Shown here piece after piece: positions 1,554-44,310 of a stretch of DNA of 44,310 nt. The translations under genes and the position numbers were made by a program. The first letter of the stretch is position 1, and every line of letters starts with the position of its first letter. The stretch spans positions 1-44,310 of the IMG/VR virus record IMGVR_UViG_3300029892_000005. The stretch is one strand, 5' to 3'. This DNA comes from a virus. Under the pieces are notes generated by a model. It worked only from the letters and a program-made list of their open reading frames with translations. It was not told the DNA's origin and searched no databases.

Positions 1554-2579
1554 ATGCTTATCAACGTCCCCATCGAATCCCTTGAAGAACGATACTCGGC
1601 GCAGTGGAACAAGTGGTTCCCGTCCGAGTTCGAGCGCCTGGGGGTTGATTATCTCACCATCGATCCGAATGGCGGTCAACTGTCGCGCATCGAGAACGGC
1701 CAGTTCCTCGACGTGGTGCGGACGAACATCTACAAGGCCGCTCAACTGCAAACCCTATGCCGTTTGATCGCGGAGGGGAGAATCACGTCAGGCGACACCA
1801 TCTTCTTCCACGACCTGTGGTTCCCCGGCATCGAGATGCTGTTCTACATCCGCGATGGGCTTGACCTCGACATCAAGATTTCCGGGATGCTTCACGCCGG
1901 CACTTACGACCCACACGACTTCCTGACGCAGAGCGGGATGGGGCGATGGGCTAAGGACATCGAGACGGCTTGGTTCAACGAGGTCGACAACATCTTCCTG
2001 GCGACCAACTTCCATGCGTCGCTGTTGCGTGACCGCTACCGGAAAGGCAGTCGGGCGCGAGTGCATGTGACGCCCTTCCCGCTGATGTGGAAGAACCCGT
2101 ACATGGAGGCAGTCGAAAAGAACAACATCGTGGTCTTCCCGCACCGTCTCGCTCCTGAGAAAGACCCGGAGATGTTCGACCAACTGACCGAGGTCCTAGA
2201 GCCTGAGTTTCCGGACTGGCAGTTCGTCGCCACCAAAAAGTATTGCGTGGATAAGGCCGACTACTGGCTGACGCTTGCGCGAGCGAAAGTGGCTATCTCT
2301 TGCGCCAAGCAGGAGACCTGGGGCATCGCGCAACAGGAGGCAGTGCTATCAGACTGCATCCCAGTGGTCCCTGATCGCTTGTCCTACCATGAGCTGTACG
2401 ACCACCGCTATACCTACGTGACGTTCGCAGAATTGGTCAGCAAGACACGCAATGCGATGGCGGCCTACGACGACATCCTCTTTGGCAACGCTTTTCAGTC
2501 TCAACAAGAACGTTTCGTTCGAGACGGCGAGCAGGCTATCGAGCGGATGCTGCGGTTGTTGCGCGTGGTGCCGTCGTGA
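1554..2579 (+). CDS. glycosyltransferase, GT4-like (GT-B fold)
   Basis: 341 residues, ATG preceded by AAAGGAG. The C-terminal half has the nucleotide-sugar side of a GT-B enzyme: VVFPHRLAPEKDPEMF (residues ~193-208), then QETWGIAQQEA holding an E-x7-E pair (Glu254/Glu262), and IPVVPDRLSYHELY. These are typical of retaining group 1 glycosyltransferases that bind an NDP-sugar. The gene overlaps dpdA by four bases (GTGA), implying coupled translation with the enzyme that puts deazaguanine into DNA. It could glycosylate the modified base, but a target on host or virion surfaces is not excluded. Donor and acceptor cannot be told from sequence. Confidence 0.83.
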   Translation: MLINVPIESLEERYSAQWNKWFPSEFERLGVDYLTIDPNGGQLSRIENGQFLDVVRTNIYKAAQLQTLCRLIAEGRITSGDTIFFHDLWFPGIEMLFYIRDGLDLDIKISGMLHAGTYDPHDFLTQSGMGRWAKDIETAWFNEVDNIFLATNFHASLLRDRYRKGSRARVHVTPFPLMWKNPYMEAVEKNNIVVFPHRLAPEKDPEMFDQLTEVLEPEFPDWQFVATKKYCVDKADYWLTLARAKVAISCAKQETWGIAQQEAVLSDCIPVVPDRLSYHELYDHRYTYVTFAELVSKTRNAMAAYDDILFGNAFQSQQERFVRDGEQAIERMLRLLRVVPS

Positions 2580-3625
2580 AAATCCATGTCGCCCTTGACA
2601 GCGGGGCCCACTCGCTGTTCAGTAAGTACGCCGCCCCAGGGATGGATTGGGAACGGATGGACTTCTCCTTCTACGACTCCGCGAAGTTTGACCAGTACCT
2701 GGACAAGTTCGTTGCCTTCGTCAAGCAACACCAACAGCACTTCGAGTTCTACGTGACCATCGACGTCATTTTCAACCCGGAAAAAACGTGGGAGATCTTC
2801 AAGCGACTGGAGGCTGTAGGCCTGAAGCCGCTTCCCATCCTCCACTACGGCGAAGACCTTAAATGGCTGAAGAAGTTTTGCGACAGGTACGAGTACATCG
2901 GCCTTGGCGGACTTGGCCAGATGGTTACGCGGAACTCCTACCTCAAGTTTGGTGACGAGGTCTTTGGATACTTGACCGACGACAAAGGGCGCTGCACTCA
3001 CAAGGTGCATGGCTTTGCGATGACGGCCTACGGGCTGTTGATGCGCTACCCGTGGCACTCAGTCGATTCCACGACGCCGTTCTCCTTCTCCCGTTACGGA
3101 GGCATCCAAGTCCCGCGCACCAGGAACGGTCGGTTTGACTTCCTGAGCATTCCGTTCATGACCCCAGTCTCGGAGCGGCGCGGGAAAGCCCCGCGACACT
3201 ACCTGCATCTGCCGTCTGTGGTGCAGTCACAGGTTTTGCGGTGGCTCGACCATTGCGGGGTCACCTTACAGGAAGTCATGACGACCTACGATGCTCGCGA
3301 CATTGTCAATCTGATCTACATGGACGGCATGATGAAAGCTATCCGCCAGTCCAAGGACGACGACTTCAGGTACTACGTCAGCGGCAAGCCTTCCGGCAGT
3401 GACGACATGCTGCCTACATTGTTGGACAGCATCGCAGCCAAAGGGGTCGAAGACTTCTACTACCTCGGCACCTACTTCCTTCCCAAACCCACCATGAACG
3501 TTCTCAAGTACAAGGAGTCACGTAATGCAAACCAAACCGCTTCTCGCCGCCCTCAAGTTGGCCGCCCCGTCATTGCACGGGATGGACTTCATTCCCATTC
3601 TCGCCCACTTCTGCTTCGCAAATGA
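2576..3625 (+). CDS. dpdA: DpdA, phage DNA guanine transglycosylase (TGT homologue)
   Basis: 349 residues with a GTG start inside the stop of the glycosyltransferase (GTGA). DpdA is a tRNA-guanine transglycosylase relative that swaps guanine in DNA for a 7-deazaguanine such as preQ0. Seen here: LDSGAHS at residues 7-13 (base-pocket Asp-Ser-Gly), GLGGLGQM near 109-116, and HGFAMTAYGLLMRYPW leading into SVDS with Asp164, the region of the TGT nucleophile in phage DpdA. The length is normal for phage DpdA. The last ~100 bases overlap the sliding-clamp gene in another frame; the tail is Arg-rich and probably not conserved. Family call is strong; the exact base inserted is unknown. Confidence 0.88.
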   Translation: MKIHVALDSGAHSLFSKYAAPGMDWERMDFSFYDSAKFDQYLDKFVAFVKQHQQHFEFYVTIDVIFNPEKTWEIFKRLEAVGLKPLPILHYGEDLKWLKKFCDRYEYIGLGGLGQMVTRNSYLKFGDEVFGYLTDDKGRCTHKVHGFAMTAYGLLMRYPWHSVDSTTPFSFSRYGGIQVPRTRNGRFDFLSIPFMTPVSERRGKAPRHYLHLPSVVQSQVLRWLDHCGVTLQEVMTTYDARDIVNLIYMDGMMKAIRQSKDDDFRYYVSGKPSGSDDMLPTLLDSIAAKGVEDFYYLGTYFLPKPTMNVLKYKESRNANQTASRRPQVGRPVIARDGLHSHSRPLLLRK

Positions 3626-4587: not shown

Positions 4588-7173
4588 ATGGGGTTCTTTT
4601 ACAAGGACAAGCCCAAAGCTGCGCGGGTAGGTGCAAAGGGGCCGTCGATCGCCTCAAAAAGCGGCCCCCGTAGGGGGTCAAATCGCCCCTACAGCGCGGA
4701 TTTAGCTAAAGCTGGGTGCAGAGCCTGTCCCAACCACCGAAAACCGCTGCAAAGCCCTAAATTAGAGCCGAGCGGAAGCGACTCTCCGTTGGTCTACGTT
4801 TTAGGCACCAGTCCTGGGGAAGCTGAAGACGAGGCCGGCGAGTATTTCGCCTCGAACTCAGGGCGCTGGCTGCGCCGGCAATTTCCCGAAGACCTCGAAG
4901 ACAGTCTTCGCTGGGGAGGGGTGCTCAAGTGCCACACTGGCCACAACCCGACGGCGTTCGAGAAAGACTGCTGCCGTCAATACATCGTGGCTGATATTGA
5001 GGCGTCGCAGCCCAAACTGATTATTGGCCTAGGTCATGCAGCCTTGTCGTGGGCAACAGGCATGACCAACACTCGTGCCTACCGCGGACGGATGATGCCA
5101 GTTCGCATCGGCAGACATGACTGCTGGTTTCTATGTGTCTCTGACCCCGCCGACTTACTGCACAACCAGGAGAAGAAAGGCGGGGACGAAGACCTGCGGT
5201 TCTTCAAGCTGGACATCACGCGGGCGCTGGCAAAGCTGGAGACACTAGACTGGCCAGAGTTGGACTTCGACTTCGACCAAGGGGTGGATCTACTGGACGA
5301 CTTCGATCTGGAGCGGGTGTTGGCAGCGCTGAAAGAGGCCAGCAAGTGGAAGCGATGTGGGATCGACCTCGAGACCAACGGCCTGCGCCCCTTTTTCAAA
5401 GACTCGCGGATCCTTACTGTTTCGATCAGCAACGGCAAGAAGACCTACGCTTTCCCTTTGCGACATAGCCAAGCGAAATGGTCGCCGAAACAACTGGCGG
5501 AGATCGACAAGGCACTCACGTCGTTCCTTCTGGATGTCGGTAGCAATATCGCCCATAACGCCAAATTCGAGCAGGAGTGGTTGTCAGAGAAGTACGGGGA
5601 CGAGGTCGTCTACGAAGGCACCTGGGACGACAGCATGGCGCAGGCCTACGTCCTTGATGAGCGCGAGGGGGCAAAGGGACTGGACGACGTAACCACACTG
5701 TACCTTGGCTTCAACATCAAGAAGCTCTCGAAGGTCGACACCAAGAAGCTGGACTCCACACCGCTCAAGACAGTGCTGCGATATAACGCGCTGGATGCCA
5801 AGTATTGCTATATTGCTTTCCTCAGGCAGAAAGCGGCGATCGAGGCCGAAGGGCTGGAAGCGGTCTACGAACGGCGCAACGGCCGGGCAGGCCCGATTGT
5901 CATTGCTCAACGGCGCGGGGTGGTTCCCGATTCCGCCCAGGCCGCCGTATTCGAGAAGGATTACTCAGCGCGCATCACCGACACGATTAAGAAGATACTG
6001 ACCAACAGCGACGTCAAGGAATTCTCTCGTGAGCACTCCTTCTCTGTTTCGTCGAACCCAGACCTGCTTGCCTTCTTCAAAGAGTTTCTCGGCTGCAAGG
6101 AGACCAAGGTAGGCGAGAACAAATACAGCACTGACGAGTCTGTACTGAACCAGATCGACCACCCTGTAGCCAAGCTCATCCTCGAAATGCGGGCAGCGTC
6201 GAAGATGTACTCCACCTATGTGCTGCCCTACATTCCCAACGGCAAGGTGCAAGGACAAGAGTCAGGGCACCAACTGCACGGCGACGGGCTGATCCACACC
6301 AACTTCAACCACCTGCTCACAAACACCAACCGACTATCCTCGGACGATCCGAACCTGCAGAATTTTCCTAAGCGCAAGGGCAAGCAGCTACGCAAAGTGA
6401 TCAAGGCGCCCGATGGGTACTGGATGGTCTCGATCGACTACGGGCAGATCGAGGCGCGTGTCATTGCGATGGCATCCAACGACAAGACGTTCTTGGATGC
6501 GCTCTGGAACAACCTTGACATCCACATGGATTGGGCAGAGAGGCTGGCTAGCGCCTACCCTAAGCGGGTTGGTGGCAAGAAGTTCCTGGCCGACAAGGAC
6601 GAGATGAAGAAGTTTCGCTCTGACGTCAAGAACCTCTGGACGTTCCCACTGTTCTTTGGCAGCACATTGTCGGCAGTGTCGCGGGGCCTGGAGATTCCGC
6701 AGAATGTCGTCACTCCTTTGTTCGACCAGTTCTGGGTCGAATTCGAAGGGGTGCATCGGTGGCAAGATCGCTTGATCAAGAACTACAGGAAGACCGGCTA
6801 CGTGGAGACACTCACAGGATTCAGGAGGCGTGGGCCGCTCAACCACAACGAAATTATCAACTCGCCAATCCAGGGCACTGCGGCCGACATCGTGACCGAT
6901 GGTATGGTTCGTCTGTCGCACCGCTCCTATGAGATAGACAAGCCGCAGCTACAATTCCGCATCAACATCCACGATGACCTCACGTTCTACCTGCCGGACG
7001 AAACACTGGAGGATGACGTGGGCTACATTGCCAAGGAGATGTGCATGGTGCCCTTCGACTTTGTGACCTGTCCGATCACGGTCGAAGTCAGCGCCGGAAG
7101 AAACTGGGGCGAGCAGGAGGACCTCATGGTATTCAGTTCAACCGACTTCGGTCACAAAAGGAGAAGCAAATGA
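4588..7173 (+). CDS. uracil-DNA glycosylase-like / 3'-5' exonuclease / family A DNA polymerase fusion
   Basis: 861 residues, the replicative polymerase. Residues ~44-215 resemble family 4/5 Fe-S uracil-DNA glycosylases: GCRACPNH (C44xxC47), LGTSPGEAEDEAG, and KCHTGHNPTAFEKDCC with further cluster cysteines (C115, C128/129). Residues ~258-430 are a DnaQ-type exonuclease (GIDLETNGL with Asp260/Glu262; IAHNAKFE). From ~580 comes the PolA core: DDPNLQNFPKRK, motif A SIDYGQIEAR (~614), SPIQGTAADIV, and motif C NIHDDL (Asp796/797). The N-terminal linker (residues ~29-38) is encoded by a copy of the dispersed palindromic element. The stop overlaps the clamp-loader ATG. Confidence 0.92.
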   Translation: MGFFYKDKPKAARVGAKGPSIASKSGPRRGSNRPYSADLAKAGCRACPNHRKPLQSPKLEPSGSDSPLVYVLGTSPGEAEDEAGEYFASNSGRWLRRQFPEDLEDSLRWGGVLKCHTGHNPTAFEKDCCRQYIVADIEASQPKLIIGLGHAALSWATGMTNTRAYRGRMMPVRIGRHDCWFLCVSDPADLLHNQEKKGGDEDLRFFKLDITRALAKLETLDWPELDFDFDQGVDLLDDFDLERVLAALKEASKWKRCGIDLETNGLRPFFKDSRILTVSISNGKKTYAFPLRHSQAKWSPKQLAEIDKALTSFLLDVGSNIAHNAKFEQEWLSEKYGDEVVYEGTWDDSMAQAYVLDEREGAKGLDDVTTLYLGFNIKKLSKVDTKKLDSTPLKTVLRYNALDAKYCYIAFLRQKAAIEAEGLEAVYERRNGRAGPIVIAQRRGVVPDSAQAAVFEKDYSARITDTIKKILTNSDVKEFSREHSFSVSSNPDLLAFFKEFLGCKETKVGENKYSTDESVLNQIDHPVAKLILEMRAASKMYSTYVLPYIPNGKVQGQESGHQLHGDGLIHTNFNHLLTNTNRLSSDDPNLQNFPKRKGKQLRKVIKAPDGYWMVSIDYGQIEARVIAMASNDKTFLDALWNNLDIHMDWAERLASAYPKRVGGKKFLADKDEMKKFRSDVKNLWTFPLFFGSTLSAVSRGLEIPQNVVTPLFDQFWVEFEGVHRWQDRLIKNYRKTGYVETLTGFRRRGPLNHNEIINSPIQGTAADIVTDGMVRLSHRSYEIDKPQLQFRINIHDDLTFYLPDETLEDDVGYIAKEMCMVPFDFVTCPITVEVSAGRNWGEQEDLMVFSSTDFGHKRRSK
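4673..4706 (+). repeat. dispersed palindromic element, copy A (inside the polymerase gene)
   Basis: GGGGGTCAAATCGCCCC, then TACAGCGCG and GATTTAGC. It matches copy B at 12,967 in nearly every base of the first 26 positions. It is read in frame as part of the flexible N-terminal linker of the polymerase fusion. Confidence 0.75.
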
Positions 7174-12206: not shown

Positions 12207-12978
12207 GGGCAACCACGATGGGGTAGATGAAAATCTGCCCTACTTTGCCTTCCTGAATGCGATCCCCAAACTCCGGTTCATCGTGAAGCCTACGGTGTTG
12301 CGGGAGGAGGGGATTCTCCTTTTACCTCACACCAAGACCCCGGAAGAGGACTGGAAGGAACGTGACATCAGCCGCGCCAAGTACATCCTGATCCACGCTA
12401 CGGTCACCGGCTGCATCAGCGAAAGCGGTCAACAGCTGGAAGGTGTATCGCGCGGTTGGTTCATGAATACGGCGGCCAAGATCTACGCTGGCGACATTCA
12501 CGTGCCGCAGACTGTAGGCCAGGTCGAATATGTAGGGGCCCCCTACCATGTGCGCTTCGGGGACAAGTTTGAGCCTCGCGTGGTCTACATCGACGAGAAG
12601 GGCAAAGCTCAAAGCATCAAGACAGAGAACGTCCGACGGCATACATTGACCATCAGTTCTCCTGACGCCCTCGACGCTGCCGCGAAAGGCGCCCGAATTG
12701 GCGACCAAGTGAAAGTTCGTATCAAGCTAGCCAGGTCAGACTACAGCAACTGGCACCAGTACAAGAAGGAAGTCACAGCCTTCTGCAAAGAGATGGGGTT
12801 TCAACTGGTCGCCATCGACCTCGAGCGTGAGCCGGAGACTTCTATTGCGCGTCCGCGCATGACCACGAACACCAAGAAGACGCCCACAGCACTGCTGGAG
12901 AAGTACGGGAAAGCCAAAGGACTGCCGGATCCGCTGCTCGCATTGGGGAAAACAATCCTGCAACAAGGGGTCAAATAG
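11971..12978 (+). CDS. Mre11/SbcD-like metallophosphoesterase nuclease subunit
   Basis: 335 residues. Calcineurin-like metallophosphoesterase motifs are in order: VSDLHLT (residues 8-14), VGDLTD (~43), LKGNHD (~78), LIHATV (~126) and AGDIHVPQ (~159). This is the SbcD/T4 gp47 nuclease that works with the SbcC/gp46 ATPase encoded next. The stop codon TAG lies within copy B of the dispersed palindromic element, so the gene's end was set or reshaped by the element. It starts within the preceding nuclease gene. Confidence 0.87.
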   Translation: MKSSVLVSDLHLTSLVRDEYRWNLFPWLKKLIDRESVSRVWIVGDLTDAKDYHPSSLVNRVVKELTDLASYCDELIVLKGNHDGVDENLPYFAFLNAIPKLRFIVKPTVLREEGILLLPHTKTPEEDWKERDISRAKYILIHATVTGCISESGQQLEGVSRGWFMNTAAKIYAGDIHVPQTVGQVEYVGAPYHVRFGDKFEPRVVYIDEKGKAQSIKTENVRRHTLTISSPDALDAAAKGARIGDQVKVRIKLARSDYSNWHQYKKEVTAFCKEMGFQLVAIDLEREPETSIARPRMTTNTKKTPTALLEKYGKAKGLPDPLLALGKTILQQGVK

Positions 12979-13001
12979 CCCCTACAGCGCGTTTTAAGCG
13001 C
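12967..13001 (+). repeat. dispersed palindromic element, copy B
   Basis: GGGGTCAAATAGCCCC, TACA, then GCGCGTTTTAAGCGC: two small hairpins in a row. Supplies the TAG stop of the Mre11-like gene and fills the gap before the Rad50-like gene. Confidence 0.8.
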
Positions 13002-15172: not shown

Positions 15173-15601
15173 ATGAAGACGCAATCCAACAACGATGTCC
15201 CTGTACCGTATATCGAGGACATGGCTGCAAGCATCAACGACCTCGTCATCCTGGCCCACGTCAAGTCGAAGAACAGCGGCTGGTGGCACGACTCGAAGAC
15301 TGGCGAGTCGCTTCTCGGTCAGTCCTACACTCCGTATGTCATCGGAACGAAGCTGATGCTCCAGGTCAGTGAGATCTCCGAAGCGATGGAAGGCCACAGG
15401 AAGGGCAAGATGGACGACAAGCTGCCACACCGGCCGATGATCGAAGTGGAACTGGCCGACGCGGTGATCCGCATTGCCGACTTGGCTGGGGCGCTTGGGC
15501 TTGACCTTGGTGGGGCGATCATCGAGAAAATGGACTACAACGACAATCGCGTCGACCACAAGATCGAGCATCGTAACGCCGCTGGCGGAAAGGCCTACTG
15601 A
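15173..15601 (+). CDS. MazG-like nucleotide pyrophosphohydrolase
   Basis: 142 residues. KLMLQVSEISEAMEGHRKG and VELADAVIRIADLAG carry the acidic EExxE/ExxD-type metal-binding pattern of all-alpha NTP pyrophosphatases, followed by KMDYNDNRVDHK. Such enzymes hydrolyse (d)NTPs to monophosphates. Next to queD, it could act on pools during deazaguanine synthesis, or lower ppGpp or dNTP pools as other phage MazG proteins are proposed to do. Stop at 15,599-15,601, one base before the queD ATG. Confidence 0.83.
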   Translation: MKTQSNNDVPVPYIEDMAASINDLVILAHVKSKNSGWWHDSKTGESLLGQSYTPYVIGTKLMLQVSEISEAMEGHRKGKMDDKLPHRPMIEVELADAVIRIADLAGALGLDLGGAIIEKMDYNDNRVDHKIEHRNAAGGKAY

Positions 15602-15602
15602 C

Positions 15603-16067
15603 ATGGTCACGACTGCCGAACGATACCACGACATCTCTTGCGGCCATCGTGTGGTCGGCCACGAGAGCGCTTGCTCCAGACTTCATGGACACAATTACCG
15701 CGTCCATTTCGTCGTAGCTCCCGACAACGGCCTCGACGACCTTGGCCGAGTGCTGGACTTCTCCGTAATCAAGTCGCGGTTGTGCATGTGGCTTGAGGAC
15801 AACTGGGATCACAAGTTTTTGGCCTGGGAAGAAGATCCGCTGATGAACGCCATATGGGCGCAGGCAGGGGACTGGGAAAATCGGCGGGAGGATCGGGATA
15901 TGCTGCGCCAGTCCATCGTCTGGGTCCCTTTCAACCCGACTGCCGAAAACATGGCCGAATTCCTGCTCAATACTATCGCTCCGCAAGAGCTTGCTGGTAC
16001 TGGCTGCAAGCTGGTCGAGGTGCGGATCGAAGAAACCCGCAAGTGCTCAGTCACCTCGTCACTCTAA
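15603..16067 (+). CDS. queD: 6-carboxy-tetrahydropterin synthase (QueD)
   Basis: 154 residues. Zinc ligands His15 (CGHRV), His28 and His30 (RLHGHNY) and the catalytic Cys24 are present, with VLDFSVIK, WDHKFL, PTAENMA and VEVRIEET in order. QueD turns dihydroneopterin triphosphate (FolE product) into 6-carboxy-tetrahydropterin, step two of preQ0 synthesis. Residues ~75-105 form an insertion between WDHKFL and PTAEN with many charged residues. It is 15 kb from folE, next to the MazG-like and radical SAM genes. Confidence 0.9.
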   Translation: MVTTAERYHDISCGHRVVGHESACSRLHGHNYRVHFVVAPDNGLDDLGRVLDFSVIKSRLCMWLEDNWDHKFLAWEEDPLMNAIWAQAGDWENRREDRDMLRQSIVWVPFNPTAENMAEFLLNTIAPQELAGTGCKLVEVRIEETRKCSVTSSL

Positions 16068-16401: not shown

Positions 16402-16762
16402 TCTCAAAAACCTTGTCCTCCGCGAGGAGGATTGGTTTGACAGCGATAGCTATACGCTGGAGGCCTGGGTTCGGCAGAAACTGCTGGACGCTGGCTTCAA
16501 GCTTCTTCCGCCTGACAACAAACTCAACATCTACGAACTGCCGCGACTGCTGCCCCCGTGGATTCTTTTCCGCGACCCACTGACCGGCGACATCCACATC
16601 CAACAGGAGGTCACACAATGTGGCACGATGCACGAATCAACATCTACCAAGTCGAATCTACCAGCAAATGCTCAGCGCGATGCGACTTCTGTCCTCACCC
16701 TGACATGGAGCGGAAGAAAGCCCATATGCCGTTGGAGACTTTCGACCAAGTCCTCAAGGTAA
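16382..16762 (+). CDS. unknown protein, C-terminal part overlaps radical SAM gene
   Basis: 126 residues as an open frame, GTG start with GGGGGAGAG upstream, overlapping the GNAT gene by 20 bases. Residues 1-80 (with WILFRDPLTGDIHIQQE) look like a genuine small protein. The last ~48 residues lie inside the radical SAM gene in another frame and look like off-frame sequence. No family recognised. It resembles the nuclease/Mre11 case in having lost its expected stop before the next gene. Confidence 0.6.
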   Translation: MPSSNANLKNLVLREEDWFDSDSYTLEAWVRQKLLDAGFKLLPPDNKLNIYELPRLLPPWILFRDPLTGDIHIQQEVTQCGTMHESTSTKSNLPANAQRDATSVLTLTWSGRKPICRWRLSTKSSR

Positions 16763-17319
16763 TGGCCAACGACTACTTCGCCCTCCACCACTTTGGCGAG
16801 CCGTTGCTCAACCCTAACTTGCCGGAGATGCTGCGTCGTGCGGGCCAGGCCGGGAAGAAGGTAGAGTTCTCAACCAACGGCTACGGCCTGCAGGACGACG
16901 CGTTCTTGCGCGAGGTACTGGAAGCGCGGCCCTACATGATTCGCATTGCCTACGACTACTTCAAACCAGACGAGTTCATTCGTAAGGTTCTCAACTACAA
17001 CCGCACCAGCGTGATCAAGCTTCATGCAGTTACCCCTGGCCTTCTCCCGGACGTCAAGCCATTGAACAACTGGGCCGGCCAAAAGCCGTGGGACAGCCAG
17101 GTCAAGGGGGCCTGCTACTTCCTCGACTACGATTACTTCGCAGTTCTGCAGAATGGAGCGATCGTTCGTTGCTGCCAAGATTACGAAGGAAACCATGTGC
17201 TGGGCACTGTTTGGTCAGTCGAAGAACTGGAGAGGCCTGAGCTTCCCTCGCCTATTCCGCTTTGCCGCACCTGTTCTGGGATGCAGTTTGCCCAGGACGG
17301 GTTGTGGAAGACCTTGTGA
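16618..17319 (+). CDS. radical SAM / SPASM-type enzyme
   Basis: 233 residues, ATG after AGGAGG. The SAM 4Fe-4S motif C18-x3-C22-x2-C25 sits in ESTSKCSARCDFCPHP, followed by FGEPLLNP (GGEP-like) and FSTNGYGL. The C-terminal part has GACYF, VRCCQDYEGN, LGTVW and CRTCSG, a cysteine set like SPASM/twitch domains that bind extra Fe-S clusters. It does not look like canonical QueE. The overlap with the preceding gene and nearness to queD suggest a role in the modified-base pathway, perhaps replacing or extending QueE; this is inference. Confidence 0.85.
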   Translation: MWHDARINIYQVESTSKCSARCDFCPHPDMERKKAHMPLETFDQVLKVMANDYFALHHFGEPLLNPNLPEMLRRAGQAGKKVEFSTNGYGLQDDAFLREVLEARPYMIRIAYDYFKPDEFIRKVLNYNRTSVIKLHAVTPGLLPDVKPLNNWAGQKPWDSQVKGACYFLDYDYFAVLQNGAIVRCCQDYEGNHVLGTVWSVEELERPELPSPIPLCRTCSGMQFAQDGLWKTL

Positions 17320-17335: not shown

Positions 17336-17665
17336 ATGCCTAGCGATCAGAAAAAGTACGGACTTGGGTTCGTTGAGCTGTTGCTTATGCACCATCGCCA
17401 GCTAGAACGCGACGGTAAGCTACTTCCCGACGAGCCCTACGAAGATATCGCTCTGCGGCATCTCCAAAGAAACCCACGGCGCATTTGCACCCTCCGAGAA
17501 ATTCAGAAGTTGATGCCAGCAGTGGAAGAGGCTGACCTACTGGTTGCGATGAAACTGCTGGCTGATCGCGGCATGGTCGACTGCCTACCGGCCGGGCCGA
17601 AGCGGTTCAACTACCGCTTGCGCCCTAGGTACCGTCCTGTGGTTGTCATTCGAGGCAAAAAATAG
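17336..17665 (+). CDS. unknown protein, possible winged-helix
   Basis: 109 residues, last gene of the rightward operon. Residues ~45-95 alternate helices with a basic beta end (LREIQKLMP, LLVAMKLLADRGMVDCLP, FNYRLRPRY), compatible with a small winged-helix DNA-binding fold. No family recognised. The stop codon TAG lies in the left arm of the terminator repeat. Confidence 0.6.
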   Translation: MPSDQKKYGLGFVELLLMHHRQLERDGKLLPDEPYEDIALRHLQRNPRRICTLREIQKLMPAVEEADLLVAMKLLADRGMVDCLPAGPKRFNYRLRPRYRPVVVIRGKK

Positions 17666-17743
17666 CCCCTACAGCGCGTTTTTACCAGTACCCGTAGGGG
17701 TAGGGCTACCCGCCCCAATAAAAACGCGCTGTAGGGGCTATTT
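17660..17743. terminator. bidirectional terminator formed by two inverted copies of the dispersed element
   Basis: Bases 17,660-17,684 and 17,719-17,743 are a perfect 25-bp inverted repeat containing AGCCCCTACAGCGCG with T-runs on the inner side and A-runs on the outer side. The loop holds a smaller hairpin, GGGTAGGGCTACCC. It lies between the convergent rightward replication operon and leftward lysis operon, so it likely stops transcription from both sides. The right arm extends to 17,749 with the full GGGGTCAAAT end of the element. Confidence 0.75.
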
Positions 17744-17749
17744 GACCCC
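17719..17749 (-). repeat. dispersed palindromic element, copy C (right arm; left arm at 17,660-17,684)
   Basis: Read on the minus strand this is GGGGTCAAATAGCCCC followed by TACAGCGCGTTTTTA, matching copy B at 12,967 over about 30 bases. The left arm repeats the last 25 bases in the opposite orientation. Confidence 0.8.
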
Positions 17750-39690: not shown

Positions 39691-41331
39691 CTACTCTCCT
39701 TTCTTTCGTCGTTCCTCTTCTTCCTCTTTCTGTTTGTGCTCTGCATACTGCTTCTTCATGTAGTCGAACAGGCCTTGGCCAGGCATCGTGGATACTGCAT
39801 AGGCGTAGACCATGCTGTCGCCCTTGTCAGGTGACCTCAGGAGCCTGGCCTTGATTTCGTCTTTGGACTCGACCTTGATGCCCCTGGCTGTCAGCTCGAA
39901 CTTCGCAGCGCATAGGTCAATTAACAGTTCCTTGTCGTTCGGTAGCGCTAGGTCAAGGCCGGACTCGGGGTCTAAGGCTTCTCTAAACTTCCACATCCAC
40001 TCTGACCTCTTGTTGTAGAAGCCGAACATGCCCGTCTTATCCCTGGCGTCACTGGCCTCCGAGGCTATGAGCTTCATTACTGCAAAGCCGCCTGCCTTGA
40101 GAATGTCGTAGGGGGAAGAGCCCACGCCGATTGCGTCGATGGCCACGATCGTGCCTGGTTGAATGTTCAGCGGCTTGCCTGTGGGATTCAGTGGTGTCCT
40201 CAATTGGACGATCAAGGTCGCGGCTTTGTTGCCGTCCTCGACCGTTACGCCAGGGTGGATGTGCTGCTCATGAAAGTAGTTTCCAGTTCGTGGGGAGAGC
40301 ACAAGGCGGTCGTTGCCTCCTCGTGCAATGTCTGCCCCCACTTGGTTGACCGGCTCGGGTGGGACTGGCCTTTCTTTCCACCTGGCCTGTGCTGCCTTTA
40401 CCCAAGCGCTGGGAATCAGCTGCCAACTGTCCTCTTTGATGCCGGCCTTGAAGTCGCCATAGAGCAGCTTACTGCGGAGGGGCTCGGGCAAGGCCTGTAG
40501 CTGCGCTTTGTAGCCGGCCTGTATCAGGTATGGGTTGTCCTCAATGCTCGCAGGAATGAACGTGCGGGACTTGGGGACGATCAGTTCTCCCTTCCTCATG
40601 AACGGCTCGGGACTGTCGACCTCCACATCCTTGCCATCGATGTTCGAGAAGTAGCGAAGTTCGCCTAGCACGGCCGGGTTAGGGTGGTCATCCCTCAGCC
40701 ACGGTCCGAAGAAATCCAGGACCCATTCCCCGTCCTTGGTCGTGGGCGGGTTGCCGGTGCCTACAATGCGGCACCTGACCTTAACGTCTTGGCGCAGTGG
40801 TCTATTCCAGGCCGTGACATACCTGACCATATACTCCGTGAATTCTGTGATCTCGTCGAAGCCATAGAAGTCGTGTGGCTGACCTTGCCAGTCTAAGACA
40901 TTCTTCTCGTGCTGAATTGAGCCGAAGCGGATGGTGCGGCCATCTTTGAACCGCCAACAGAAGCGGGATTCATTGAATGAGTCCCTCTTGGCGTCTGTCC
41001 CGTCCCGCTGGTACAGGGCACGACTGCGCTCAATGATTGCTCGCAGGGAAGGGAAGACCCGACGAAAGATCAGAGCACGGTAATGGACTAAGGCCAAGCC
41101 TAGTAACAGGTCAGTCTTGCCGCCGCCGGCCGCCCCCCCGTAGAAGAGGAAGTCGGCTGGGCTGTGGTAGGCTAAGGTCTGCGGGCCGGGAAGTGGGGCC
41201 CAGGCAGCGGTAACGCTACTCAGTAAGCTGTCCAGCTCCAGCTGCTCGCTTAGCGTTAATGAGTTGAAGAACTCTGACAAATCGCTCTTCGTCATTGAGC
41301 TGCACTGCTCCAACAGTTTCGATAGGTCCAC
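39691..41331 (-). CDS. terL: terminase large subunit
   Basis: 546 residues. Walker A GGAAGGGKT (residues 65-73), IFRRVFPSLRAIIERSR, Walker B YGFDEIT, and the nuclease part with GADIARGGND and AIDAIGVGSS. Drives DNA packaging. GTG start at 41,331 with AGGGG upstream; the gene overlaps the small subunit by 116 bases. The C-terminus is highly charged. Confidence 0.92.
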   Translation of the reverse strand: MDLSKLLEQCSSMTKSDLSEFFNSLTLSEQLELDSLLSSVTAAWAPLPGPQTLAYHSPADFLFYGGAAGGGKTDLLLGLALVHYRALIFRRVFPSLRAIIERSRALYQRDGTDAKRDSFNESRFCWRFKDGRTIRFGSIQHEKNVLDWQGQPHDFYGFDEITEFTEYMVRYVTAWNRPLRQDVKVRCRIVGTGNPPTTKDGEWVLDFFGPWLRDDHPNPAVLGELRYFSNIDGKDVEVDSPEPFMRKGELIVPKSRTFIPASIEDNPYLIQAGYKAQLQALPEPLRSKLLYGDFKAGIKEDSWQLIPSAWVKAAQARWKERPVPPEPVNQVGADIARGGNDRLVLSPRTGNYFHEQHIHPGVTVEDGNKAATLIVQLRTPLNPTGKPLNIQPGTIVAIDAIGVGSSPYDILKAGGFAVMKLIASEASDARDKTGMFGFYNKRSEWMWKFREALDPESGLDLALPNDKELLIDLCAAKFELTARGIKVESKDEIKARLLRSPDKGDSMVYAYAVSTMPGQGLFDYMKKQYAEHKQKEEEEERRKKGE

Positions 41332-41695
41332 TATTTGCCCCTGTGAGTTCCACTTGAGAATTCTCCTTCCACCCTGCTCGCGTCTTAAGCCAAAAGATCA
41401 TTGCTGTGATTGCTTCACGGCCTTGGGACTTGGTCGCCACATCGTACAGCCGCTGAGCGACCTTGATAGTGGCCAAGGACGCCCCGGTGTCCAACTCCTG
41501 GCGGTACTTGTCGCGAAGGGTGACCTCACCGATGCCTATGATTGAGGACATGATGGGTTGGGGGATTCCGAAGGCAGACATCTGGCGCACCTGCCAACGC
41601 TGATAGTCTGTAGGGGTGTGGCCGCCGGGGTCAGCGGTTCGCAGTTTGATCCGCTGCTCAATCGGAGGCTTGATCTTGAGGCGTGGTCTGTCCAT
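41216..41695 (-). CDS. terS: terminase small subunit
   Basis: 159 residues. QMSAFGIPQPIMSSIIGIGEVTLRDKY, in parts QMSAFGIPQPIMSSIIGIG and EVTLRDKYRQELDTG, is a helix-turn-helix followed by VAQRLYDVATKSQGREAITAMIFWLKTRAGWKE (core AMIFWLKTRAGWKE), typical of this TerS group. It recognises the packaging site and is often found near it; the neighbouring 41,696-42,306 region is a candidate site. Confidence 0.87.
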   Translation of the reverse strand: MDRPRLKIKPPIEQRIKLRTADPGGHTPTDYQRWQVRQMSAFGIPQPIMSSIIGIGEVTLRDKYRQELDTGASLATIKVAQRLYDVATKSQGREAITAMIFWLKTRAGWKENSQVELTGANSGPIETVGAVQLNDEERFVRVLQLINAKRAAGAGQLTE

Positions 41696-41737
41696 ATTGG
41701 TCTGTTCCTTAAGTGATGATTACCATAAGCAGGGGCA

Positions 41738-41767
41738 GTAATAGGGCGCTGACCGAGACCACGTCAA
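41738..41767 (-). promoter_or_regulatory. probable leftward promoter for the packaging/late operon
   Basis: On the minus strand TTGACG (41,767-41,762), an 18-base spacer, then TATTAC (41,743-41,738). Transcription would start some 25-30 bases before the terS ATG. Another TTGACT lies at 41,913-41,908 but without a good -10. Confidence 0.5.
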
Positions 41768-41837
41768 CGACCTGGCCACCGTTTGCGGCGGTTGCAGATA
41801 CTCCAGAAAAACCGGTTGCCCGTGTTTTTCCCAAGTC

Positions 41838-41866
41838 TTGACCAGTTTCCCGAAAGTATCTACAAT
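41838..41866 (+). promoter_or_regulatory. strong sigma70-type rightward promoter
   Basis: TTGACC at 41,838-41,843, a 17-base spacer, TACAAT at 41,861-41,866. Near-consensus. It points toward the small genes from 42,307, leaving a leader of over 400 bases that contains the structured region. Confidence 0.7.
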
Positions 41867-41911
41867 AGGCCGTAAGGTAGTTAGGATGTAGTCGTAGGTT
41901 AGTTAAAAGTC

Positions 41912-42278
41912 AAGTCCCTAATAGCTAACTACCGAGCATAGATGCACTAGGCCCCCGAGCCCCTCGTGATGAGGACGCCAACAAGGGACTTCCAAGTCGC
42001 ATGCCGTTGAACTCGGTCGCAACTGAAGAGGACTATGCTCGGCCTGCTTGAAGGCTGAGGCATGTGGTCGCAAGATACCAGTTGAACCACCCACCACATG
42101 AGTGACACTTATGCCTCCAGGCCGCCGACCAGCAACGGCGCACCTGCAGAAGCCTGCAGACTAGCGAATAGGGAGACCTCCCCGAGTACCTAGTCTGCAG
42201 GACGAGTAGGGAAACAACGAAAGACACTGCGGATGCAGTGCAGGCGGCATATAACAATGTACCGCCTGTCGTGCATCC
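41912..42278 (+). ncRNA. candidate large structured RNA / leader (or packaging site)
   Basis: The only stretch longer than 300 bases without a supported gene (41,696-42,306). Perfect inverted repeats, left arm/right arm: 41,912-41,919/41,984-41,991 (8 bp); 41,932-41,941/42,033-42,042 (10 bp), interleaved with the first, i.e. a pseudoknot; 42,040-42,046/42,118-42,124 (7 bp) enclosing 42,057-42,063/42,111-42,117 (7 bp) and 42,064-42,068/42,093-42,097; 42,153-42,164/42,190-42,201 (12 bp) enclosing GGGA-GACC-TCCC; 42,231-42,237/42,272-42,278 plus 42,241-42,247/42,262-42,268. It lies directly downstream of the strong promoter. Could be a cis-acting antiterminator, a trans-acting RNA, or DNA repeats of a pac/cos or origin site. 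Confidence 0.5.
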
Positions 42279-42306
42279 ACCCATCCAATAACTTAGGAGC
42301 AACATC

Positions 42307-42528
42307 ATGACACGGAAACTCATCGACGGCGACTTCACTGCCACTCACGAACTCAAGGTCTACCGCGACAGCGAATGGAACGAGTACATCGCCCAAGTGC
42401 GCTGCAAGGCGAACAACAAGATTGTCAGCAGCTACCACAGCGACGACAAGGAAGACGCGAAGAGCAGTGGCCGGAAGGAACTGGCCGTCTGCACCGAAAA
42501 GAACATCCGCAAGCAAGCCATCCTCTAA
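42307..42528 (+). CDS. small unknown protein, first of the early cluster
   Basis: 73 residues, ATG after TTAGGAG. Beta-rich start and a charged, helical end (HSDDKEDAKSSGRKELAVCT). No family recognised. Its translation start lies 28 bases after the last hairpin of the structured leader. Confidence 0.7.
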   Translation: MTRKLIDGDFTATHELKVYRDSEWNEYIAQVRCKANNKIVSSYHSDDKEDAKSSGRKELAVCTEKNIRKQAIL

Positions 42529-42538
42529 GGAGCATACC

Positions 42539-42958
42539 ATGGAAAACACCAACACCAATACCAACCTCGAGTCCCCTGTTGCAGCTGACCAGGCTGTTGC
42601 TGAGCCTGTGAAAGCCGTGCCCGCCCAACAACCGCTTGTCTCCCTCGAGACCGAGATCCTAGTGTCTGCGCTGACCGCGCTGCTGATGCCGAAGCTGGAA
42701 GTGATGGTCGACCGACTGCTGGAAAAGAAACTGCAAGGATTGGTCCTGCCTGACCACGAGGAGTTCGACGAAGCGGTGGTCGCTGCCGTCGTCCATCGGC
42801 AGGAGGCAATCATTGAGGGGCTGAAGGACGGCATTGTCTCGTGCCTGGATATAAATGCGATCGTCGAATCCGACGACTTCAGCGGTGCAGTGGAGAGCGT
42901 CGTCGAAAACATGGACATCTCGATCAGTGTCAACGGCAGCGCCCGGAGGTATCGCTAA
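42539..42958 (+). CDS. acidic unknown protein
   Basis: 139 residues, ATG after AAGGAG. Asn/Thr-rich N-terminus (MENTNTNTNLE), then acidic helices (residues ~35-125) with heptad-like leucines and valines. No family recognised; predicted helical, possibly oligomeric. Stop overlaps next ATG (TAATG). Confidence 0.7.
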   Translation: MENTNTNTNLESPVAADQAVAEPVKAVPAQQPLVSLETEILVSALTALLMPKLEVMVDRLLEKKLQGLVLPDHEEFDEAVVAAVVHRQEAIIEGLKDGIVSCLDINAIVESDDFSGAVESVVENMDISISVNGSARRYR

Positions 42959-43684: not shown

Positions 43685-44310
43685 ATGATTACGATTACCA
43701 AGGAAATGCTAAAAGGGTGGGACGCTTGCCGAGATGGCTACGAGTGGTTCCTGCGTAGGTTCCCAACCGGCAAGTCGGAATACCAAACTGTCCTCAATGC
43801 GCTGGCTGAGGACGACCGCCCCGGCGACGCCGATTGGTTGATGAGTCGCGTCGGAGCGACCGCCGGATATGTTCTCAAGGTTGAGGCCATCGCCAACTGT
43901 AAGCACTTCTTTGCTGCGGGGAGCCTTATTGTCAAGGCTGGAGTGCAGGTTACTGGTGCGCTGAAGGCCGGGAGGGGTATCGAGGCCGGGAGTGGTATCG
44001 AGGCCGGGAGTGGTATCAAGGCCGGGAGTGGTATCAAGGCCGGGGAGGGTATCGAGGCCGGGGAGGGTATCGAGGCCGGGAGTGGTATCGAGGCCGGGTG
44101 GGGTATCAAGGCCGGGGAGGGTATCGAGGCCGGGGAGGGTATCGAGGCCGGGAGTGGTATCGAGGCCGGGAGTGGTATCAAGGCCGGGAGTGGTATCGAG
44201 GCCGGGAGTGGTATCAAGGCCGGGTGGGGTATCAAGGCCGGGTGGGGTATCAAGGCCGGGGAGGGTATCGAGGCCGGGAGTGGTATCGAGGCCGGGTGGG
44301 GTATCAAGGC
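43685..44310 (+). CDS. hexapeptide-repeat protein, 3' end outside window
   Basis: Open frame from the ATG at 43,685 (AAAGAAAGG upstream) to the window end. Residues 1-75 form a non-repetitive head (LKGWDACRDGYEWFLRRF; DADWLMSRVG) of a kind seen at the start of some phage repeat proteins. From residue ~98 on, a six-residue unit GI(E/K)AG(S/E/W) repeats over 18 times, matching the I-x-x-x-S-x periodicity of a left-handed beta-helix or related solenoid. Likely a rod or surface protein. The opposite strand is also open across the repeat but that is a by-product of the repetition. Confidence 0.78.
   Translation, partial: MITITKEMLKGWDACRDGYEWFLRRFPTGKSEYQTVLNALAEDDRPGDADWLMSRVGATAGYVLKVEAIANCKHFFAAGSLIVKAGVQVTGALKAGRGIEAGSGIEAGSGIKAGSGIKAGEGIEAGEGIEAGSGIEAGWGIKAGEGIEAGEGIEAGSGIEAGSGIKAGSGIEAGSGIKAGWGIKAGWGIKAGEGIEAGSGIEAGWGIK
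43976..44310. repeat. 18-bp tandem repeat, about 18.6 units in view
   Basis: Unit GGTATC(G/A)AGGCCGGG plus a variable triplet: AGT (Ser), GAG (Glu) or TGG (Trp). Only two codon positions change: E/K at residue 3 and S/E/W at residue 6 of the unit. Unit order read off: ES, ES, KS, KE, EE, ES, EW, KE, EE, ES, ES, KS, ES, KW, KW, KE, ES, EW, K-. Continues past the window end. Confidence 0.92.

Follow-up and report, generated by a model that had tools for sequence, protein, structure and literature searches.

A candidate structured 5' leader RNA at the head of a probable early phage operon

Genomic Setting of the Locus

The window, that is, the whole stretch of DNA analyzed, is a complete IMG/VR virus record of 44310 bases. 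Near its right end, two gene blocks diverge from a noncoding region (Table 1): a leftward block of structural genes that runs from terS and terL onward, and a rightward block that opens with a gene for a 73-aa protein. The DNA polymerase, the clamp, the clamp loader, and a UvsX-like recombinase are coded by a rightward block at the opposite end of the contig; only on a circular or circularly permuted genome would that block lie downstream of the region. Judged by gene content and the host-type promoter, the rightward operon is probably early.

Table 1. Features at and around the candidate leader (coordinates of the window)
Feature	Position	Strand	Description
terL	39691-41331	-	3' of terS in the leftward block
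terS	41216-41695	-	divergent from the rightward genes
Promoter, sigma-70-type	41838-41866	+	TTGACC-17-TACAAT; 10/12 consensus positions, spacer 17
Candidate structured 5' leader RNA of the rightward operon	41873-42306	+	about 434 nt; from the fold and the homologue in L006
H1 hairpin	41876-41933	+	outer stem GGTAGTTAG/CTAACTACC, apical TAGG/CCTA, 18-nt loop with AAAGTCAAGTC
B1 conserved block	42003-42028	+	GCCGTTGAACTCGGTCGCAACTGAAG; 24/26 bases identical in L006
HB2 bulged hairpin	42123-42141	+	stem CGCCG/CGGCG, loop A(C/T)CAGCAA
H2 long hairpin	42143-42210	+	outer CCTGC/GTAGG; 12-bp perfect inner stem 42153-42164/42190-42201
H3 hairpin	42231-42278	+	loop region CATATAACAATG; CATACAACAATG in L006
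First rightward gene (73 aa)	42307-42528	+	PHROG 7884, E = 2.1e-8

The promoter is the sole sigma-70-like site within 41600-42600, and from its position transcription is expected to start near 41873; the other limit of the region is the ribosome-binding site (RBS) of the 73-aa gene, which forms its 3' end. A first-pass annotation had described a structured region between divergent promoters, lying just behind a near-consensus one. The near-consensus promoter is there and points rightward, but a minus-strand counterpart for terS was not found in 41600-42600. Since the sole promoter-like site found lies on the plus strand, with none for terS, the feature is best regarded as a 5' leader belonging to the rightward operon.

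Several other elements of the contig deserve mention. A 41-aa frame upstream of terS (41709-41834, minus strand) has a hydrophobic stretch at its end and may code for a small membrane protein or for nothing. At the right edge, a gene made of 18-nt tandem repeats (43685-44308) runs off the contig, and the assembly probably broke there. A putative 7-deazaguanine gene set occupies the plus strand at 3-518, 2576-3625, about 15594-16067, and 16558-17319; it codes for a radical SAM protein, a PTPS/QueD-like protein, a DpdA-like queuine tRNA-ribosyltransferase-like protein, and a GTP cyclohydrolase I that carries the end of a probable intein, which together likely constitute a DNA modification system. 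Further, a repeated element, GGGGTCAAATMGCCCCTACAGCGCG, occurs at 4674-4698 (plus), 12967-12991 (plus), 17654-17686 (plus, partial), and 17719-17749 (minus). Where the rightward and leftward blocks end, two copies lie in opposing orientation within the gap that separates them, and two copies overlap stop codons; the element may serve as a terminator or as a site specific to the phage.

Inverted Repeats and Fold Signal

The segment 41912-42278 had been singled out for eight perfect inverted repeats of 7-12 bp, a density taken to be beyond chance. By our count it holds 12 such repeats of at least 7 bp, and the claim of density is borne out by dinucleotide shuffles, which average 2.8 and in 0 of 300 cases reach 12. 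Five of the repeats are at least 8 bp long (the longest being 12 and 10), and when the whole contig is tiled, the tile richest in repeats of that length is the 367-nt one starting at 41839. The plus strand of the segment folds at -142.6 kcal/mol (z = -6.2, with 0 of 100 shuffles as good), and the minus strand has z = -3.4. A sliding scan in 200-nt steps peaks at 42001-42300, and the signal is gone in the flanking coding sequence on both sides. For the leader as delimited in Table 1, z is -5.2, and a repeat run gave -6.7 for the plus strand versus -3.1 for the minus strand. The originally annotated extent is structured but too short: the 5' hairpin begins at 41876 and the leader continues to 42306.

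A Homologous Leader in a Related Phage

Among the relatives, L006 stands nearest: this 4.6-kb contig codes for a TerL 70% identical to that of the window. It features a promoter (TTGACA-17-TAGAAT) at the same place, again the sole promoter-like site there, followed by a 544-nt leader (z = -4.7) in the same position and orientation, divergent from terS. An nhmmer search of eight loci, with the window as the query, recovers this leader at 1.1e-12. The TerL of L006 (1660-4299) is interrupted in frame by about 330 residues resembling an intein.

The four hairpins of the window correspond to hairpins in L006, and their loop motifs are constant while their stems vary. First, the outer stem of H1 reads GTGATGTT/AACATCAC in L006, and the hairpin as a whole has two-sided changes in 6 of 12 pairs; its loop is 18 nt in both phages and retains AAAGTCAAG. 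Taken alone, H1 is stable in L006 (0/500 shuffles) and not significant in the window (77/500). Second, the bulged hairpin HB2 has the stem CGCGG/CCGCG in L006, with one pair going from C-G in the window to G-C; on its own it is significant in no single sequence (51 to 88 of 500 shuffles). Third, H2, directly 3' of HB2, has a stability of -33.8 kcal/mol in the window and -31.0 in its counterpart, each unmatched by any of 300 shuffles, and its outer stem shows two-sided changes in 3 of 5 pairs. Fourth, H3 is unmatched in 500 shuffles of either phage, and its middle stem has two-sided changes in 6 of 7 pairs; its apical part allows two alternative registers. The distance from H3 to the first start codon is 28 nt in the window and 40 nt in L006.

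The spacing between the elements is likewise similar, with 69 versus 70 nt from H1 to B1 and 118 versus 122 nt from B1 to HB2. B1 may form a small hairpin of its own (GCCG-7 nt-CGGT). Between H1 and HB2, the middle domain (about 190 nt) is without an agreed fold, with z = -0.8 in the window and -2.0 in L006. In the predicted folds of both phages, the 5' end may pair with the tail that follows H3.

Across 40 hand-aligned pairs, we counted 17 two-sided changes, 2 one-sided changes, and 21 unchanged pairs, with none broken; this count leans towards structure because the structure was in view when the stems were aligned by hand, and the shuffle tests on single hairpins are the more independent evidence. 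Compensatory changes in relatives, whose absence had been named beforehand among the grounds for giving up the RNA proposal, are thus present in L006. The helix-keeping changes that mark a conserved structured RNA come mainly from two sequences, the window and its clear homologue L006, with a distant and partial contribution from a third contig, L007.

In L007 (TerL 54% identical), the same position is occupied by a noncoding stretch of about 780 nt with little sequence similarity, which folds with z = -3.1 (-2.2 when repeated on a smaller number of shuffles). It shares with the other two the layout and one hairpin, HB2, here with the stem TGCCG/CGGCA and the loop ACAGCAA, a motif produced by only 14 of 20000 shuffled versions of the L007 leader. 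The first gene downstream differs among all three phages, which fits a leader of the operon better than one of a single gene and fits an independent RNA gene equally well.

The independent contig with a homologous leader, together with the 0/300 and 0/100 shuffles, makes chance or an assembly artefact a highly improbable source of the pattern, even with a contig that ends in repeats and has no close relative in the collections searched. Another reading is that the region acts as DNA, as a pac/cos packaging site near terS or as a replication origin. It adjoins terS between divergent gene blocks, and inverted repeats are common at such sites; yet it opens at a promoter and closes at an RBS, and in the window as well as in L006 it is the transcribed strand that folds better when measured against shuffles, for which reasons we consider a packaging site or origin less likely than an RNA leader. 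Constant loops on changing stems also point to RNA, and no clear skew switch of the kind expected for an origin is seen at the region. A DNA element is, on this evidence, improbable.

Pseudoknot and Coding Potential

A pseudoknot of an 8-bp with a 10-bp helix had also been proposed. The interleaved repeats exist in the window (41912-41919/41984-41991 and 41932-41941/42033-42042), but the pseudoknot is not supported by L006: no equivalent of the 10-bp helix is seen in the predicted fold of L006, and at the corresponding position of that leader there is no 6-bp complement to the H1 loop.

The earlier view that no coding frame is supported agrees with the comparison of the two phages. B1 and HB2 share one frame in L006 and, owing to the different spacing, not in the window. 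The conservation of B1 extends to third codon positions, so it is not a coding signal. A conserved peptide is accordingly unlikely.

Searches for Further Homologues

The structured region had not been recognized as a known RNA family, and Rfam 15 likewise returned no match at the gathering threshold for the window, L006, L007, or a fourth contig, L002; a relaxed search gave only chance matches far below threshold, mostly to microRNA models. The window has no tRNA genes. Searches by DNA similarity recovered no homologues from GenBank phages and plasmids. Motif scans of viral contigs with B1, B1 plus HB2, and HB2 found, besides L006, only unrelated or coding sequence. In bacterial genomes, the B1 plus HB2 pattern picked out nine stretches, none similar to the two-sequence profile, and a TerL profile found no relative. 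Among TerL relatives other than L006 and L007 there was no recognizable leader; one of them, L031, was set aside after its sequence had been read. In GenBank phages with a related TerL or 73-aa gene, the arrangement was absent from the five regions read.

L002 has a first gene 66% identical to that of the window, preceded by a 264-nt leader (about 2735-2998) that holds the sole copy on its 41-kb contig of CAGCAACGGC, a 10-mer of the HB2 motif. The fold of this leader is not significant (z = -0.9), and it was therefore not counted as a homologue. A likeness of HB2 to the 530 loop of 16S rRNA was dropped as weak.

Proposed Function of the Leader

The leader is probably a working RNA, because its folds are kept in a related phage despite many changed letters, and its layout suggests action in cis on its own transcript. 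We accordingly favor, with a probability of roughly 0.55, the reading of the region as a conserved structured 5' leader RNA that acts in cis on the early transcript; the promoter motif, the fold signal, the compensatory changes in L006, and the constant position are observed directly, and its transcription, early timing, cis action, and binding partner are all things that we infer from the DNA. Host RNA polymerase would start at the promoter and transcribe about 430 nt, which would fold into H1, the middle domain with B1, HB2, H2, and H3 as the polymerase continues into the early genes. H3, just ahead of the first start codon, might serve as a processing or stabilizing hairpin. The domain upstream of it, with its fixed loops (AAAGUCAAG, GUCGCAACUGAAG, and AYCAGCAA), might be bound by RNA polymerase, a ribonuclease, the ribosome, or another host or phage factor, and such binding would govern elongation or decide what becomes of the early message. 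If the leader does act in cis, the odds are about even between control of processing, stability, or translation on the one hand and RNA-based control of elongation or antitermination on the other.

One form of the latter is a put-like RNA that modifies RNA polymerase so that it reads through terminators. Its position just after the early promoter and its fixed loops on changeable stems would suit this role, as would an operon that, on a circular or circularly permuted genome, would extend from 42307 across the contig ends as far as 17665. Against it, put is far smaller (about 70 nt with two stem-loops; PMC9378689), and no terminator-like site was found on the plus strand of the operon's first 2 kb; for antitermination as such, this absence is neutral, speaking neither for nor against it. 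The repeats at 4674 and 12967 might be terminators. We hold the put-like version only tentatively.

An alternative to cis action is a stand-alone phage RNA, trans-acting or a scaffold, that is freed from the leader by cleavage at H3. The large size, the several fixed loop motifs, and a 5' end that, in both predicted folds, may pair with the sequence behind H3 are compatible with such an RNA, and the large phage RNAs GOLLD and ROOL provide precedents (PMC12286853). However, no intrinsic terminator was found on the plus strand of the leader, including after H3, and the leader instead runs straight to the RBS; the lack of an Rfam match and of tRNA genes in the window also weighs against it, and we regard it as doubtful.

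Returning to the cis-acting leader, a bolder version would place it in a novel family of large phage leader RNAs, whose members steer the host RNA polymerase or ribosome directly through their fixed loops, with the RNA replacing a protein antiterminator or takeover factor; this proposal we deem unlikely at present. Few large structured phage RNAs are known, most of which still lack an assigned function. Here, the location at the start of a probable early operon suggests the job of the RNA, and its fixed loop motifs can be mutated one by one.

Comparison with Known Systems

The RNase III sites of the phage T7 early transcript are isolated hairpins between genes. H3 resembles them in being long, irregular, and placed just before the first early gene, and it is kept in L006; unlike the T7 sites, it is preceded by a large conserved domain, and it is a candidate processing site only. 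With GOLLD and ROOL the leader shares the character of a large structured phage RNA. These RNAs are often found near tRNA islands and are represented in Rfam, with GOLLD often exceeding 800 nt (PMC12286853), whereas the leader matches neither Rfam model, has no tRNA gene in its window, and falls outside both families. The put RNA of HK022, which acts on elongating RNA polymerase (PMC9378689), is similarly a structured RNA placed after a phage early promoter and upstream of the early genes. The leader, with about 430 nt and at least four hairpins, differs from it in both size and hairpin number. Should it modify RNA polymerase, it would match put in function at a much larger size; otherwise, it would still be a candidate for a new RNA family whose fold shows evidence of selection.
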